Positions 30,305-64,000 of a DNA stretch of 64,000 nt are shown here, piece after piece. This DNA comes from Pantoea deleyi. Lineage in GTDB: Bacteria > Pseudomonadota > Gammaproteobacteria > Enterobacterales > Enterobacteriaceae. The stretch spans positions 1,240,001-1,304,000 of the forward strand of contig NZ_CP071405.1 of NCBI RefSeq assembly GCF_022647325.1, given 5' to 3'. The translations under genes and the position numbers were made by a program. The notes under the pieces were generated by a model that had not been told where the DNA came from, did no database searches, and was given only the letters and a program-made list of their open reading frames with translations. Each line of letters starts with the position of its first letter. Position 1 is the stretch's first letter.

Positions 30305-30355
30305 AAGAATATGATTAACGCTCGTCTCTGACGAGCCTGACGGAAGCATGTCACT

Positions 30356-50055: not shown

Positions 50056-52728
50056 ATGAGCGACCTTGCGAGAGAAATTACACCGGTCAACATCGAAGAA
50101 GAATTAAAAAATTCTTACCTCGGTTACGCCATGTCGGTCATCGTTGGCCGAGCTTTACCCGATGTGCGTGATGGCCTGAAGCCGGTTCACCGTCGCGTGC
50201 TTTATGCGATGAGCGTACTGGGTAACGACTGGAACAAACCCTATAAAAAATCTGCCCGCGTCGTCGGTGACGTTATCGGTAAATATCACCCGCATGGTGA
50301 TTCCGCCGTGTACGACACCATCGTACGTATGGCCCAGCCTTTCTCCCTGCGTTACATGCTGGTGGACGGACAAGGCAACTTCGGTTCCATCGACGGCGAC
50401 TCCGCCGCGGCGATGCGTTATACCGAAATTCGCATGTCGAAAATCGCCCACGACCTGTTAGCTGACCTGGAAAAAGAGACCGTCGATTTCGTGCCGAACT
50501 ACGACGGCACTGAGCAGATCCCTGATGTTCTGCCGACTAAAATCCCGAACCTGCTGGTGAACGGCGCTTCCGGTATCGCCGTCGGTATGGCAACCAATAT
50601 TCCGCCGCACAACCTGCGTGAAGTGATTAACGGCTGCCTGGCTTACATTGAAGATGAGAACATCAGCGTTGAAGCGCTGATGGAGCACATTCCGGGGCCT
50701 GATTTCCCGACCGCCGCCATCATCAATGGACGCCGTGGTATCGAAGAGGCGTACCGCACCGGACGCGGTAAAATTTATATTCGTGCGCGTGGCGAAGTCG
50801 AGGCCGATGCAAAAACCGGCCGCGAAACCATCATCATTCACGAGCTGCCCTATCAGGTGAACAAAGCCCGCCTGATTGAGAAGATTGCGGAGCTGGTGAA
50901 AGAGAAGCGTGTCGAAGGCATCAGCGCACTGCGCGATGAGTCTGACAAAGACGGCATGCGCATCGTGATTGAGATCAAGCGTGATGCAGTCGGCGAAGTG
51001 GTGCTGAATAATCTCTACTCGCTGACGCAGCTGCAGACGTCGTTTGGCATCAACATGGTTGCCCTGCATCAGGGTCAGCCAAAGATCATGGCGCTGAAGG
51101 AGATTCTGGACGCCTTCGTTCGCCATCGTCGTGAAGTGGTGACGCGTCGTACTATTTATGAACTGCGCAAAGCCCGTGACCGTGCCCATATCCTGGAAGG
51201 TCTGGCAATTGCGCTGGCGAATATCGATCCGATCATCGAGCTGATTCGTCGTGCGCCGACGCCGGCCGAAGCGAAAGCGGGTCTGATCGCGCAGGCGTGG
51301 GATCTCGGTAATGTGTCCGCGATGCTGGAGCGTGCAGGCGATGACGCGGCGCGTCCGGAGTGGCTTGATGCGCAGTTCGGTATTCGCGACGGTCGCTACT
51401 ATCTGACCGAGCAGCAGGCTCAGGCGATTCTGGATCTGCGTCTGCAGAAACTGACCGGCCTTGAGCATGAGAAGCTGCTGGACGAGTACAAAGCGCTGCT
51501 GGAGCAGATTGCTGAGCTGCTGCACATTCTGTCGAGCGCCGAGCGTCTGATGGAAGTGATCCGCGAAGAGCTGGAGCTGATGCGCGACCAGTTTGGCGAC
51601 GATCGTCGTACCGAGATCACCGCGAACTCCGCCGATATCAATATCGAAGACCTGATCAATCAGGAAGACGTGGTCGTGACGCTGTCGCATCAGGGCTACG
51701 TGAAGTATCAGCCGCTGAGCGACTATGAAGCGCAGCGTCGTGGTGGTAAAGGCAAGTCGGCCGCACGTATCAAAGAAGAGGACTTCATTGATCGTCTGCT
51801 GGTGGCCAATACCCACGATACGATTCTGTGCTTCTCCAGTCGTGGCCGTCTCTACTGGATGAAGGTGTATCAGTTGCCGGAAGCCAGCCGTGGCGCGCGT
51901 GGACGTCCTATCGTCAACCTGCTGCCGCTGGAAGCCAACGAGCGTATTACGGCGATTCTGCCGGTACGTGAGTACACCGAAGGCTTCAATATCTTTATGG
52001 CGACCGCGCTGGGTACCGTGAAGAAGACCGCGCTGAAAGAGTTCAGCCGTCCACGCAGCGCGGGCATTATTGCCGTGAACCTGCGTGACGACGATGAGCT
52101 GATCGGCGTGTCGCTGACCAACGGTAACGATGAAGCGATGCTGTTCTCTGCAGCCGGTAAAGTGGTGCGCTTTGCTGAAACTGCCGTCCGTGCGATGGGG
52201 CGTACCGCTTCGGGCGTGCGTGGTATCAAGCTGGCGGAAGGCGATCGCGTCGTGTCGTTGATTGTGCCGCGTGAAGAGGGTGCCATCATGACCGTAACGC
52301 AGAATGGTTACGGTAAGCGTACGGCCAACAGCGAATACCCGACCAAGTCGCGTGCGACTCAGGGTGTTATTTCCATCAAAGTGACCGAGCGTAACGGTCC
52401 GGTGATTGGCGCGGTTCAGGTTGTCGATAGCGATCAGATTATGATGATCACCGATGCCGGTACGCTGGTGCGTACCCGCGTGTCAGAAGTGAGCGTTGTA
52501 GGTCGTAATACCCAGGGCGTGATTCTGATTCGTACGGCAGAGGATGAGAATGTCGTGGGTCTGCAGCGTGTTGCTGAGCCGGTTGAAGAAGAAGAGCTGG
52601 ATTCCATCGACGGCAGCGTAGCGGAAGGCGAAGATGATATTGCGCCGGAAGCTGAGATCGATGATGAAGAGATTGCACCGGAAGAGGATGCGGACGGTGA
52701 AGACGACGCGGCGGAAGACGAAGAGTAA
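50056..52728 (+). CDS. gyrA: DNA gyrase subunit A
   Basis: 890 aa (E. coli 875). The winged-helix domain has the catalytic Tyr122 in [12 protein letters not shown]. The quinolone-resistance region is GDSAVYDT with Ser83 and Asp87 intact, so of susceptible type. The C-terminal beta-pinwheel has the GyrA box QRRGGKG near residue 559. The acidic tail after [11 protein letters not shown] is about 15 residues longer than in E. coli, explaining the size. Residue 23 is Gly in [10 protein letters not shown], where I recall Asp in E. coli. It cuts and passes DNA with GyrB to add negative supercoils. Confidence 0.97.
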
Positions 52729-52760
52729 TTTGTCTGGAATAAGCTAAGGTCGTTGCAGAA

Positions 52761-52798
52761 ACGGCAGGTCAGGGGAAACCCGGCCTGCCGTTTTTTTT
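52761..52798 (+). terminator. Intrinsic terminator of gyrA
   Basis: ACGGCAGG (52761-52768) pairs with CCTGCCGT (52784-52791), with an inner GGG/CCC extension, then eight T. The tandem array starts about 14 bases after it, so it lies outside the gyrA transcript. Confidence 0.9.
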
Positions 52799-52811: not shown

Positions 52812-53702
52812 GGGACGGGGTGATCGCTTTGAGCCGGGTGCTGCCGAAAGGCCCGCCATGCCCGATCGCAAAGGAGGCCCGCATCCCTGCGGATCGGCCA
52901 CGCCCTCCCTGGCGTGGACGCTTTGCTCTTCGGGCACGGCGGGTCTTTCTTGCTGAGGCTCTGGTGTTGCTTCAGGGGGGATTTGGGGGGCAGTGAGCCG
53001 GGCGCTTTGAGTGGGGTGCTGCCGAAAGGCCCGCCACGCCCGATCGCAAAGGAGGCCCGCATCCCTGCGGATCGGCCACGCCCTCCCTGGCGTGGACGCT
53101 TTGCTCTTCGGGCAGGCCGGGTCTTTCTTGCTGAGGCTCTGGTGTTGCTTCAGGGGGGATTTGGGGGGCAGTGAGCCGGACGCTTTGAGTGGGGTGCTGC
53201 CGAAAGGCACGCGATGCCCGATCGCAAAGGAGGCCCGCATCCCTGCGGATCGGCCACGCCCTCCCTGGCGTGGACGCTTTGCTCTTCGGGCACAGCGGGT
53301 CTTTCTCGTTGAGGCTCTGGTGTTGCTTCAGGGGGGATTTGGGGGGCAGTGAGCCGGGCGCTTTGAGCCGGGTGCTGCCGAAAGGCCCGCCATGCCCGAT
53401 CGCAAAGGAGGTCCGCATCCCTGCGGATCGGCCACGCCCTCCCTGGCGTGGACGCTTTGCTCTTCGGGCATGGCGGGTCTTTCTCGTTGGGGCTCTGGTG
53501 TTGCTTCAGGGGGGATTTGGGGAGCAGTGAGCCGGGCGCTTTGAGTGGGGTGCTGCCGAAAGGCCCGCCATGCCCGATCGCAAAGAAAGCCCGCATCCCT
53601 GCGGATCGGCCACGCCCTCCCTGGCGTGGACGCTTTGCTCTTCGGGCATAGCGGGTCTTTCTCGTTGGGGCTATGGTATTGCTTCGGGAGGGCTGGTGCA
53701 GT
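52812..53702. repeat. Tandem array of five 178-bp units downstream of gyrA
   Basis: The landmark CTGCCGAAAG recurs at 52841, 53019, 53197, 53375 and 53553, exactly 178 bp apart; GTGTTGCTTCAGG recurs with the same period. A 58-nt core (52879-52936 in unit 1) is unchanged in all five. Each core holds hairpins CCGCA-TCCC-TGCGG and CCACGCC-CTCCCT-GGCGTGG inside outer arms near CCCGCCATGCCCGA and TCGGGCAYGGCGGG. Because 178 is not a multiple of three, reading frame shifts every unit, so the open frames through it on both strands are not credible genes. It is not CRISPR: there are no unique spacers. Confidence 0.95.
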
Positions 53703-53815
53703 GAAGAGGTCGGTAGACAGATGTTCGGGACGCGGTGAGCCGGGTCTTTCCCGCTGGGCTTCTGTGTTGCTTCAGGGGGGCTGGGTTGGGGAGCAGGGCG
53801 GGTGTTTCTCGATGA
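53703..53815. repeat. Decayed partial copy at the end of the 178-bp array
   Basis: From about 53729 the sequence again shows GGTGAGCCGGGTCTTTC, GTGTTGCTTCAGGGGGG and GGGGAGCAG in unit order, but the hairpin core is missing and spacing differs. It looks like an eroded sixth copy. Confidence 0.65.
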
Positions 53816-54031: not shown

Positions 54032-56884
54032 TTGAAATATCCTGTCTCTTTCCGCACCACGCTTCGCATCTCGCGTTATCTTTTCCGCGCGCTGGCGCTG
54101 CTAATCTGGACGCTGGGCGCCGTTCTGACGGCGTTTTACATCATCAGCGTGCTGCACAATAAAGAGACGCAGGTTCGTCAGGAGTTTGCCAGCAACTACG
54201 GCACGATCCAGTGGTATGTGCGCCATTCGGCGGACATGATGCGTGAGCTGAAATATATCACCGAGAATCGCCTGACCAACGCCAGCAGCGGGCTGGATGT
54301 CCTGACGGGCATGATGCCGGGCAAGACCACCCAGCCGCAGTTTACGCCGCTGTTTTCCGATGGCGACTGTACCGCGATGAGCAACACCTGGCGCAATTCG
54401 CTCGATTCCCTGAGTTACTACATCAATTACTGGAAAAGCAATTTCGCCTCGTCCTATGAGCTGAACCGGGTGTTCTTTATCGGTGGCGAGAGCCAGTGTC
54501 TGGCCGAGTTCACCATCGGCAGCAGCAATGCTGACCGGGAGCGCAGTCTTAAATCGCTGCGTGAAAATGTGCTGCGCTACCGCAACAGCAGCGAGGAAGA
54601 GCGTCGTAATCCGATGTACTGGATTAACAGCAGCGCGCAGCCAGGCGTAGGCACCTTCTACATGGTGGTGCCGGTGTATGTCGCGAATAAGCTGCAGGCG
54701 CTGCTGGGCGTGGAGCAGAATATCCGGCTGGATGAGTTTATCCAGCCGGGCAGCCTGCCGATTATCGCCTCCATTACCGATGAAAATTATCGTCCGCTGC
54801 TGAACTCGCGGCGCGGCGGGCTGGGCTTCTCGCTCGATAATCTGCCCGACGATAAAACCTGGTTCGGCTACCTGAATGGCTATCGCCAGCTGGTGCTGAA
54901 AAAGCCGCTGCCGCCTTCAGATCTCAATGTGGTCTGGTCGATACCGACCGACGTGATGGTGGATCAGCTTAAGCTGATGATTATCAACGCGCTGCTGCTC
55001 AATATTTTCAGCGCCGTGATCCTGATTACGCTCGCCTGGATATTTGAGCGCCGGATGTTCCTGCCGGCGGAAGAGAATGCCCATCGGCTGGAGGAGCACG
55101 AGCAGTTTAACCGCAAGATTGTCGCCTCGGCGCCGGTCGGGATCTGTATCTTACGCACCAGCGACGGCACCAATATTCTGAGTAACGAGCTGGCGCACAA
55201 CTATCTGACGCTGCTGACCCAGGAAGACCGCCTGCGGCTGAATGAGATTATCGGCGGGCAGCAGGTTAACTTTGTCGATGTGCTGACCGGCAGCAATACC
55301 AACCTGCAAATCAGTTTTGTGCATTCGCGCTATCGTAACGAGAACGTGGCGATCTGCGTGCTGGTCGATGTCTCGGCGCGTGTGCGGATGGAGCAGTCTC
55401 TGCAGGAGATGGCCCACGCGGCAGAGCAGGCCAGCCAGTCAAAATCGATGTTCCTTGCCACGGTCAGTCATGAGCTGCGCACGCCGCTCTACGGCATTAT
55501 CGGTAACCTCGATCTGCTGCAGACCAAAGAGCTGCCCAGCGGGATCGATTCGCTGGTGACGGCGATGAACAACTCCTCCAGCCTGCTGCTGAAGATCATC
55601 AGCGACATTCTCGACTTCTCGAAAATTGAGTCGGAGCAGCTGAAGATTGAGCCACGTCCGTTCGCCCCGCGCGAAATTGTCACCCACATCGTTGGCAACT
55701 ACCTGTCGCTGGTGGTGAAGAAGCGGCTGACGCTCTACTGCTTTATTGAACATGATGTTCCGCAGGTGCTGGATGGCGATCCGCTGCGTCTGCAGCAGGT
55801 GATTTCGAACCTGCTGAACAACGCCATCAAGTTCACCCACACCGGCTGTATTATCCTGCACGCCTATGTGCAGGAGGGCTATCTGGCGTTTCGCGTACGT
55901 GACACCGGCGTGGGGATCCCGGCCAAAGAGCTGCCGCGCCTGTTTGACCCCTTCTTCCAGGTGGGAAATGGCGTGCAGCGCAATTTCCAGGGCACCGGGC
56001 TGGGGCTGGCGATCTGTGAAAAACTGATCAACATGATGGATGGCGATATCGAGGTTGACTCCGAGCCGGGCATGGGCAGCCAGTTCATCGTGCGTATTCC
56101 GATCTACAAAGGGCAGAAGCCGTCACTGCTGCTGCTGGAAGATTTGCAGGATAAGAAGATCTGGCTGGCCATGCGCAACGACTATCTTGCCGCGTTTATC
56201 ACGCGGCAGATCCAGCAGCAGGGCATCCAGGTGGCGGAGTACAACGGTAAGCCCGGCCCCGACGATGTGGTGATGACCGACTACGATTTCGAAACCGACC
56301 TGCCGCTGCGTGCGCTGGTGACCTTCGACGGATCGCATGTGGATATGCCGCGTGAACGTCAGCCCGGACACTGGGTTCACTCTACCGCCACGCTGCATGA
56401 GGTTCCGGCGCTGCTGGCGCGCATTTACCGGATCGCGCTGGGGCAGGATGCGGCGGATGCACTGCTGCTGGCCGCGCCGGTCGAAGAGAAGGTGCACAAC
56501 GATGACATCATGGTGCTGATTGTCGATGACCATCCGATTAACCGTATGCTGCTGTCGGAGCAGCTTGGCACGCTGGGCTACCAGGTGAAGACCGCCCAGG
56601 ATGGCGTCGATGCGCTGAATGTCCTGAGCCGCAATGAGATCGACATCGTGCTCACCGACGTCAACATGCCAAACATGGATGGCTATCGTCTGACACAGCG
56701 GTTACGTCAGCTGGGCCATCTCTTCCCGGTGATCGGTGTCACGGCGAATGCGCTGGCGGAAGAGAAACAGCGTTGTATGGATGCGGGGATGGATAACTGC
56801 CTGTCGAAACCGGTGACGCTGGATGTGCTGAAGGGAACGCTGGCGATCTATGCGGAGCGGGTTCGTAAAACGCGGGCAGGATAG
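54032..56884 (+). CDS. rcsC: Hybrid sensor histidine kinase RcsC
   Basis: 950 aa (E. coli 949), from a TTG at 54032 (KYPVSFRTTLRISRYLFRAL). Two membrane segments, about 22-42 and 314-335, flank a periplasmic domain. Then come a linker domain (NRKIVASAPVGICILRT), the kinase with His480 in VSHELRTPLYG, the ATPase boxes DTGVGIP and GTGLGLAICEK, an atypical receiver, and a C-terminal receiver with Asp876 in LTDVNMPNMDG. It phosphorylates RcsD and then RcsB under envelope stress. It is convergent with rcsDB, the conserved layout. Confidence 0.96.
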   Translation: MKYPVSFRTTLRISRYLFRALALLIWTLGAVLTAFYIISVLHNKETQVRQEFASNYGTIQWYVRHSADMMRELKYITENRLTNASSGLDVLTGMMPGKTTQPQFTPLFSDGDCTAMSNTWRNSLDSLSYYINYWKSNFASSYELNRVFFIGGESQCLAEFTIGSSNADRERSLKSLRENVLRYRNSSEEERRNPMYWINSSAQPGVGTFYMVVPVYVANKLQALLGVEQNIRLDEFIQPGSLPIIASITDENYRPLLNSRRGGLGFSLDNLPDDKTWFGYLNGYRQLVLKKPLPPSDLNVVWSIPTDVMVDQLKLMIINALLLNIFSAVILITLAWIFERRMFLPAEENAHRLEEHEQFNRKIVASAPVGICILRTSDGTNILSNELAHNYLTLLTQEDRLRLNEIIGGQQVNFVDVLTGSNTNLQISFVHSRYRNENVAICVLVDVSARVRMEQSLQEMAHAAEQASQSKSMFLATVSHELRTPLYGIIGNLDLLQTKELPSGIDSLVTAMNNSSSLLLKIISDILDFSKIESEQLKIEPRPFAPREIVTHIVGNYLSLVVKKRLTLYCFIEHDVPQVLDGDPLRLQQVISNLLNNAIKFTHTGCIILHAYVQEGYLAFRVRDTGVGIPAKELPRLFDPFFQVGNGVQRNFQGTGLGLAICEKLINMMDGDIEVDSEPGMGSQFIVRIPIYKGQKPSLLLLEDLQDKKIWLAMRNDYLAAFITRQIQQQGIQVAEYNGKPGPDDVVMTDYDFETDLPLRALVTFDGSHVDMPRERQPGHWVHSTATLHEVPALLARIYRIALGQDAADALLLAAPVEEKVHNDDIMVLIVDDHPINRMLLSEQLGTLGYQVKTAQDGVDALNVLSRNEIDIVLTDVNMPNMDGYRLTQRLRQLGHLFPVIGVTANALAEEKQRCMDAGMDNCLSKPVTLDVLKGTLAIYAERVRKTRAG

Positions 56885-62150: not shown

Positions 62151-64000
62151 ATGGCAGAACTCACGCAAGGCCGTGTAGACATTATCTCGCGCGAAAATGG
62201 CACGCTCATCTCGCAATCTGTTGGCGGTTCATCCCAATCCATTAACCTCACCGAGCCCAGCGTCGTGCGTATCAACGGCACGCGCGCTCTGGTCACCCAG
62301 TATGAGCGGCAGGGCAACGACCTGGTGCTGCACATGCGCGATGGCAGCACCGTTCGCTATCAGAAATTCTTTCTGGACGACGCTGATGGCCAGCACAGCG
62401 AGCTGGTGTTCGACGATGGCGTCAATCCGCCGGAACATGCGCTTTTTCCGCAGACCGCCGAGAGCGCTGAACTGGCCTCCAGTTCGGTTACGCCAACCTA
62501 TGAATCCCTGGACAGCGTAGAGCCGCTGCTGCTGGCCGATAACACCAACACTTCGATGGGCGTGATCACGGCGGGCGGTCTGGGTGTGCTGGGCTTAGCC
62601 GGACTGGCCGTGGGCTTAGGCGGTGGTGGTGGCGGCGGTGGCGGGGGGAACGGTGGCGGCAGCGATCCCGGAACCCCGGTCACGCCAGGCACCCCCGCCA
62701 TCACCCTGAACGCCTTTGCCGGCGATGGCGTACTGGATAACGCCGAAAAAACCAGCGATCAGGTGGTGAGCGGAACCACCAGCAATGTCGAAGCGGGCCA
62801 GATTGTCACCGTGACGCTGGGCGGCCAGACCTACACCACTCCCGTCGGCGCGGACGGCAGCTGGAGCGTCACTATTCCGGCCGCCGCGCTGGCGGCCCTC
62901 CCGGCGGGCTCCACCACCATCGATGTCAGCGTCACCAACGGCGCAGGCACGACGGCGAACGGCAGCCTGCCCGTCACCGTGGCCGCACCGGATCCCGGCA
63001 CGCCCGCCACACCCGCTATCAGCCTCAATCCGTTTGCCGGCGACAATCTGCTGGATAACAACGAGAAAACCTCACCGCAGACCCTCTCCGGCAGCACCAG
63101 TAACGTCGAGGCCGGGCAGATCGTGACGGTCACCCTGGGCGGTCAGACCTATAACGCCACCGTGGGCGCAGATGGCAGCTGGAGTGTCTCCATTCCGGCC
63201 GCCGCCCTCTCCGCGCTGGCCGCAGGCAGCAGCACCATCAACGTCAGCGTCACCAGCGCCGCCGGCACCACGGCATCCGCCAGCCTGGGCATTCAGGTGC
63301 AGGCCCCTGATACCACGCCTGGTGTGCCAGCCCTGACCATCGCACCGTTTACCGGCGATGACGTGCTGAGCAACGCCGAAAAAACTACGCCGCAGACGCT
63401 CTCCGGCAGCACCAGCAACGTCGAGGCCGGCCAGGTCGTGACGGTCACTCTGGGCGGGCAGAGCTACAGCGGCAGCGTCGCGGCCGACGGCAGCTGGAGC
63501 ATCACCGTGCCTGCCGATGCGCTGGCGGCACTCGCCTCCGGCACCACCACCGCCACGGCCACCGTCACCAGCCAGGCGGGCAGCGTCGCCAGCGGCAGCC
63601 TGACCTTTACCGTCGAGGCACCGGTGACGCAGCCGGGCACGCCGGTTATCACCATCGATCAGTTTGCGGGGGATGACATCCTCAGCAACAGCGAGAAAAA
63701 CAGCGACCAGCTGCTGAGCGGCAGCACCGCCAATGTGGAGGCGGGGCAGGTTGTGACCATCACGCTGGGCGATCAGACCTACAGCGCGGTGGTGGATGCG
63801 CAGGGCAACTGGAGCGTCACGCTCTCGTCTGCGGCGCTGAATACCCTGGCCGCCGGATCGATCGCAATCTCCGCCGTCGTGACTAACCAGGCGGGCACCG
63901 AGGCCAGCGAAAACCGCACCATCAGCGTCGATACGCCGGTAGTGACCGGCCCGCCAGCGATCACGCTGGATGACTTTACCGGCGATAACCAGCTGAGCAA
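62151..64000 (+). CDS. BapA-like giant repetitive adhesin, N-terminal part
   Basis: Open from ATG 62151 (GAGG upstream) to the window edge, 616 residues and no stop. N-terminal about 125 residues resemble the BapA prefix domain (QGNDLVLHMRDGSTVRYQKFFLDD). Then comes a hydrophobic stretch (MGVITAGGLGVLGLAGLAVGLGG, about 136-158), a run of ten glycines, and a PGTP linker. From about residue 184, Ig-like repeats of 104-106 residues follow. Known relatives are type I-secreted biofilm adhesins held at the outer membrane; here the C-terminal secretion signal and transporter lie beyond the window. Repeats are rich in Gly, Ser, Thr and Val and contain no Cys. Confidence 0.85.
   Translation, partial: MAELTQGRVDIISRENGTLISQSVGGSSQSINLTEPSVVRINGTRALVTQYERQGNDLVLHMRDGSTVRYQKFFLDDADGQHSELVFDDGVNPPEHALFPQTAESAELASSSVTPTYESLDSVEPLLLADNTNTSMGVITAGGLGVLGLAGLAVGLGGGGGGGGGGNGGGSDPGTPVTPGTPAITLNAFAGDGVLDNAEKTSDQVVSGTTSNVEAGQIVTVTLGGQTYTTPVGADGSWSVTIPAAALAALPAGSTTIDVSVTNGAGTTANGSLPVTVAAPDPGTPATPAISLNPFAGDNLLDNNEKTSPQTLSGSTSNVEAGQIVTVTLGGQTYNATVGADGSWSVSIPAAALSALAAGSSTINVSVTSAAGTTASASLGIQVQAPDTTPGVPALTIAPFTGDDVLSNAEKTTPQTLSGSTSNVEAGQVVTVTLGGQSYSGSVAADGSWSITVPADALAALASGTTTATATVTSQAGSVASGSLTFTVEAPVTQPGTPVITIDQFAGDDILSNSEKNSDQLLSGSTANVEAGQVVTITLGDQTYSAVVDAQGNWSVTLSSAALNTLAAGSIAISAVVTNQAGTEASENRTISVDTPVVTGPPAITLDDFTGDNQLS
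62700..64000 (+). repeat. Tandem Ig-like repeats in the adhesin (about 315 bp each)
   Basis: Repeat starts at 62700, 63018, 63333, 63648 and 63960 (106, 105, 105 and 104 codons). Each begins with a version of ITLxxFAGDxxLxNxEK and contains SGxTxNVEAGQxVTVTLGGQxY and GSWSV. Four are complete and the fifth is cut by the window edge. Confidence 0.9.

Follow-up and report, generated by a model that had tools for sequence, protein, structure and literature searches.

The question raised by the region between gyrA and rcsC of Pantoea deleyi is to which family its conspicuous, unannotated tandem array belongs, how the array came to be there and whether it acts on its neighbours. The analysed stretch of 64,000 nucleotides (the window) was part of a 3.99-Mb contig in a genome of 4.68 Mb. 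An earlier note had described five noncoding units of 178 bp between the two genes, and both Tandem Repeats Finder and the pairwise comparison of the units confirmed them. The placement right after the gyrA terminator also stood; the start was corrected from 52812 to 52825, and a sixth unit without a core was added. The features of the region are as follows:

50056..52728, plus strand: gyrA, the upstream neighbour (NCBIfam equivalog TIGR01063, 1293 bits, above cut-off)
~52760..52798, plus strand: hairpin and T-run, taken by eye as the gyrA terminator and kept in related intergenic regions
52825..53704, plus strand: tandem array of five 178-bp units starting at 52825, 53003, 53181, 53359 and 53537, the last diverging at its 3' end
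52845..52949, plus strand: core palindrome of unit 1 (model R1, 115.5 bits)
52882..53623, minus strand: ten CANGGANG hairpin loops found by motif scan, two per unit and about 22 nt apart inside a unit
53023..53127, plus strand: core palindrome of unit 2 (model R1, 107.5 bits)
53201..53305, plus strand: core palindrome of unit 3 (model R1, 106.5 bits)
53379..53483, plus strand: core palindrome of unit 4 (model R1, 117.9 bits), folded on both strands
53557..53661, plus strand: core palindrome of unit 5 (model R1, 115.3 bits)
53739..53796, plus strand: remnant of a sixth unit, with 3' arm and spacer and no core (81% to unit positions 114–169)
54032..56884, plus strand: rcsC, the downstream neighbour (NCBIfam equivalog NF008099, 1613 bits, above cut-off)

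For positions 52825–53692, Tandem Repeats Finder reported a period of 178 with 4.9 copies, 95% matches and 0% indels, the units being arranged head-to-tail. Units 1–4 shared 167–172 of 178 bases pairwise, and unit 5 had 151–154 bases in common with the others, a lower identity due to its divergent 3' end. In units 1–4 the cores varied in 1 of 72 columns and the rest of the unit in 13 of 106, a low variation of the cores that could indicate selection instead of passivity. The array is indeed noncoding, as had been proposed: a period of 178 is not divisible by 3, and what is conserved is palindromic. It is crossed by chance ORFs. The exclusion of a CRISPR was upheld because the unit and the spacer both repeat. 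A GTAG REP/BIME, which PMC3733652 defines as a 20–40 bp palindrome with a GTAG tag, was likewise rejected: when the five units were read, units 1–4 held neither GTAG nor CTAC, and GTAG occurred only beyond 53704, where unit 5 loses homology. The window also contains a coding tandem repeat at 62777–63787 (315 bp, about 3.2 copies), which reads as an adhesin-like repeat protein, and a 24/48-bp repeat at 669–794, one frame of which is a Pro-Lys-rich stretch of the PKTVEQ type.

Judged by homology, the array repeats in tandem a variant of YPAL/RU-2, a mobile palindromic repeat already known. YPAL was reportedly first described in Yersinia, by De Gregorio in 2006. The RU-2/YPAL sequence as printed in PMC2759123 contains the array core, in reverse. 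Against the units, it gave a local score of 61 for a shuffle maximum of 30 (n = 300), and BLAST matched it to all five (E 2.6e-5 each), with 79% identity over 52 nt per unit, covering RU-2 positions 54–105. The same sequence was 97.6% identical over 168 nt to a Yersinia similis copy (L150) marked both by Rfam and by our model R1, which had been built from 26 copies from genomes of the same genus only. A pattern scan for the core listed at least 80 loci in Pantoea, Erwinia, Pectobacterium, Yersinia, Samsonia, Brenneria and Rahnella; R1 found the element in 71 of 80, including those of Yersinia and Pectobacterium, and missed nine, among them the only listed Brenneria and Rahnella loci. With the own genome included each time, matches were obtained by DNA similarity in 28 of 60 relatives; with R1, the genomes with a match numbered 48 of 60 within the genus and 17 of 247 within the order. 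R1 also matched weakly in other families of the order (L111, L112, L114–L122 and L126–L130), where the two hairpins were kept with CANGGATG-type loops and on different stems. The core pattern was matched by one viral contig, and the whole intergenic region had no match in E. coli genomes, plasmids or phages.

The earlier idea of an undescribed element of no known family is thus abandoned, the core being a homologue of YPAL/RU-2, held in Rfam as RF02770 (Ysr224). A match to a catalogued Rfam entry had been considered in that note: nothing was found in the array at the gathering threshold, but the core is homologous to the repeat of RF02770. The Ysr224 model gave 17.9–20.4 bits (E 0.09–0.5) on the window units, below its cut-off of 70, and 35.3 bits on the best copy of the own genome; the Yersinia and Pectobacterium loci tried were all marked (5/5), with 89–134 bits. 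At a loose threshold it also matched 9 of 14 control genomes, so that the Ysr224 model alone proves nothing. The sole Rfam match above gathering in the window was the nuoG RNA (RF01748) at 30307–30346. Two Yersinia loci (L135 and L138) showed sub-threshold matches to V_AS5 (RF02818), possibly another repeat family. A search of the open-access literature found no paper on a tandem repeat at the Pantoea gyrA–rcsC locus.

The core of about 105 bp folds as a three-way junction with a long outer arm, the inner stem GCAAAG/CTTTGC and a pair of hairpins. The units had been suspected to be structured, and this proved to be strongly so: folded alone, the 105-nt core of unit 4 was more stable than all of its 200 shuffles, whichever strand was taken and whether it was folded as RNA or DNA (plus strand, z of -9.0; minus strand, z of -7.6). 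On the minus strand, the core of unit 5 likewise exceeded all 200 shuffles, and that of unit 2 was equalled by 1 in 200. Folding the complete 178-bp unit produced no signal (z of -0.06 and -1.11). Among 26 aligned copies, two-sided changes affected 26 of 38 base pairs, versus 13.2 in shuffles, and none of 500 shuffles reached 26. Covariation was present in 18 of 20 outer pairs, and four of six inner pairs were invariant. Thus the arms differ between loci with their complementarity kept, by either selection on the stem or a self-templated correction of the palindrome.

Gene context was read for 70 of 108 rows, after manual removal of those that lay on the window or at the gyrA locus, came from an array already represented, or repeated the same palindrome on the opposite strand; a simple ORF rule served to call the genes. 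Convergent genes flanked 31 of the 70 elements, one of these being inside a called ORF, and divergent genes flanked a single element. Co-directional pairs numbered 17 (four inside a called ORF) versus 12, and nine elements had one neighbour off the locus. The family is located behind genes, with a bias to 3' ends; the baseline comparison with gene pairs subtracts element gaps by assumption and is indicative only. No replication-strand bias was seen in the two genomes examined (14 leading, 17 lagging).

Tandem organisation was unevenly distributed. Of the 28 R1 matches listed for the own genome (E ≤ 1), 22 were in tandem groups at six loci, so that arrays similar to the one described here exist at five other loci. 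None of 16 matches in a genome of the genus Pectobacterium (G184) and none of 15 in Yersinia aleksiciae (G304) was tandem (E ≤ 0.001, again among the matches listed); these per-genome totals are lower bounds (at least 28, 16 and 15). On the chromosome of G000, arrays of six, four and three elements of the same family lie at about 2704385–2705499, 3069143–3069798 and 2112891–2113476, the array of three following an apparent araA gene. In locus L033 (genome G023, about 373–2256), four of six array elements carry an extra hairpin-bearing insertion inside one core hairpin loop, evidently amplified together with its element.

The number of units, which the earlier note had proposed to compare between strains, does vary between genomes. 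The rcsC gene was located in 57 of 60 genomes; in five of these the stretch taken missed rcsC, which left 52 measured intergenic regions. Of these, 16 were filled (1–5 elements, 423–1303 bp) and, by an anchor test, 36 were free of elements (123–359 bp). Ten of the fifteen other filled regions held at least two elements, and the spacing ranged from 170 to 253 bp, varying between genomes. Since 15 other genomes have at least one element at the same locus, the assembly artefact that had been envisaged is unlikely. The sister genomes G068 and G062 each had a single damaged copy, and what was seen by eye in G003 may be a decayed remnant.

Taken together, the reading that we consider quite probable is that of a tandemly amplified subtype of YPAL/RU-2, which are small non-autonomous mobile palindromes, with an old insertion followed by unstable duplication, and passive at this place. 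Core homology, fold, location at 3' ends, differing copy number and short element-free regions in relatives are what is observed; the history would be as follows. In the ancestor of one Pantoea clade, an element would have inserted just behind the gyrA terminator. Slippage or unequal recombination, which the long palindrome probably favoured, would then have produced head-to-tail copies of the element with its flank, and units would still be gained, lost and trimmed. Between the two genes, the array would most likely contribute nothing essential beyond strong hairpins.

Another reading would give the array a function at this locus, its hairpins insulating rcsC from gyrA read-through, or the array acting on local supercoiling or binding gyrase. 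The position directly behind the gyrA terminator, the bias of the family to 3' ends and the very stable folds on both strands are all consistent with such a role. It is nevertheless very unlikely, as 36 of the 52 measured relatives have no recognisable element here, the copies are decaying in sister genomes, and the other five loci of the genome have similar arrays. The array is real and lineage-specific, and locally it is most likely passive.

The loops of the core point in a different direction. They carry CANGGANG, which we take to be the CsrA/RsmA consensus, on both inner hairpins of one strand. It can be imagined that the minus strand is transcribed and that ten putative CANGGANG sites titrate CsrA, the whole family being dispersed CsrA-binding elements. 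Outside the ten loops of the array, the window has no CANGGANG hairpin whose stem reaches 4 pairs (a background sample of 1.44 Mb of strand gave 11), and the genome encodes both CsrA and CsrB, all in agreement with such a sponge; the strand with the loops, however, is antisense to gyrA and rcsC, and a strict promoter scan found no promoter for it. Among 128 non-identical elements, 108 had at least two loops, 19 had one and 1 had none, counts that are biased for the pattern-fetched loci because the search pattern holds one loop. The other loci were counted apart, and in 111 distinct cores (anchored outside the loops, with no loop-containing pattern) 76 had at least two loops, 31 one and 4 none, which favours the sponge; yet many cores are related copies, so that these counts are not independent. 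When 186 cores were folded, 172 had NGGA in one hairpin loop or in two, against 0 for the other strand and 132 of 930 shuffles. The most variable loop position was the N before GGA, followed by the position after GGA. These two results also speak for CsrA binding, but do not account for what is invariant in the core beyond the loops. Further points against it are that Ysr224 models the opposite strand, that the co-directional pairs (17 versus 12) are slightly against the GGA strand as sense, and that the single copy of G068 has lost one loop. In addition, the CsrB of this genome has two CANGGANG among 21 GGA, indicating that its sites are mostly of another form. On balance, titration of CsrA by the array is unlikely. 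That YPAL-type elements spread putative CsrA/RsmA-binding hairpin pairs in enterobacterial and other gamma-proteobacterial genomes, the Pantoea arrays being local multi-site sponges, is equally doubtful; a search of the open-access literature found no paper joining YPAL with CsrA. If CsrA did bind at the loop motif, this family of mobile elements would be feeding a global post-transcriptional regulator.

With the amplified YPAL/RU-2 subtype as the preferred reading, the array can be compared with known systems. The likeness to the CsrB/CsrC sponge RNAs is one of possible working only, since a transcript of the minus strand would carry many GGA in its hairpin loops. No homology is claimed, and the array differs in having no known transcript or promoter and a site form unlike that of the CsrB of this genome. 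The CGTC-tagged REP, as described in PMC3733652, have stems of 8–9 bp and loops of 4–5. The minus strand of the array similarly has CGTC directly before the first hairpin, but that hairpin has 7 pairs and a 6-nt loop and sits inside a larger three-way junction.

The closest relative is YPAL/RU-2 itself. For YPAL, PMC2229807 gives target duplications of 3–26 bp, the targets lying in or close to regions of dyad symmetry. Single copies of the window subtype showed no clear target-site duplication. Among non-redundant copies of the GTAAAG type, flanking repeats of at least 9 bp occurred in 23 of 86, 22 of them at the expected ends, versus 4 of 86 for mismatched flanks. In the GCAAAG (window) type, the figures were 9 of 36 versus 1 of 36, seven of the nine lying in arrays, whose spacer itself repeats, and the other two being L083 and L211. 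Perfect hairpins in the 5' flanks were not in excess over shuffles (4 of 36 versus 2, and 5 of 86 versus 5); terminator targeting is thus not confirmed by this count, which runs contrary to the account of YPAL targets in reviews. Several duplicated flank stretches, seen by eye, resemble terminator halves. Sixteen of 36 window-type copies, versus 1 of 86, had the motif YYGCTK at each side; the 178-bp period is not the distance between these motifs, and amplification through them is therefore not claimed. The window subtype and YPAL/RU-2 have homologous cores, in which both hairpins and the inner stem are the same, and share an intergenic, multicopy distribution at the 3' ends of genes. A full YPAL measures about 167–168 bp and has YPAL ends; the window subtype has neither, its flanks being of another kind, with other terminal sequences and its own end motifs. 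Its stems are GC-richer, it scores under the Rfam cut-off, and it forms arrays. The unannotated array thereby gains a family and a history, YPAL is extended to Pantoea and Erwinia in a form missed by Rfam, and one of its subtypes is seen to amplify in tandem along with its flank.
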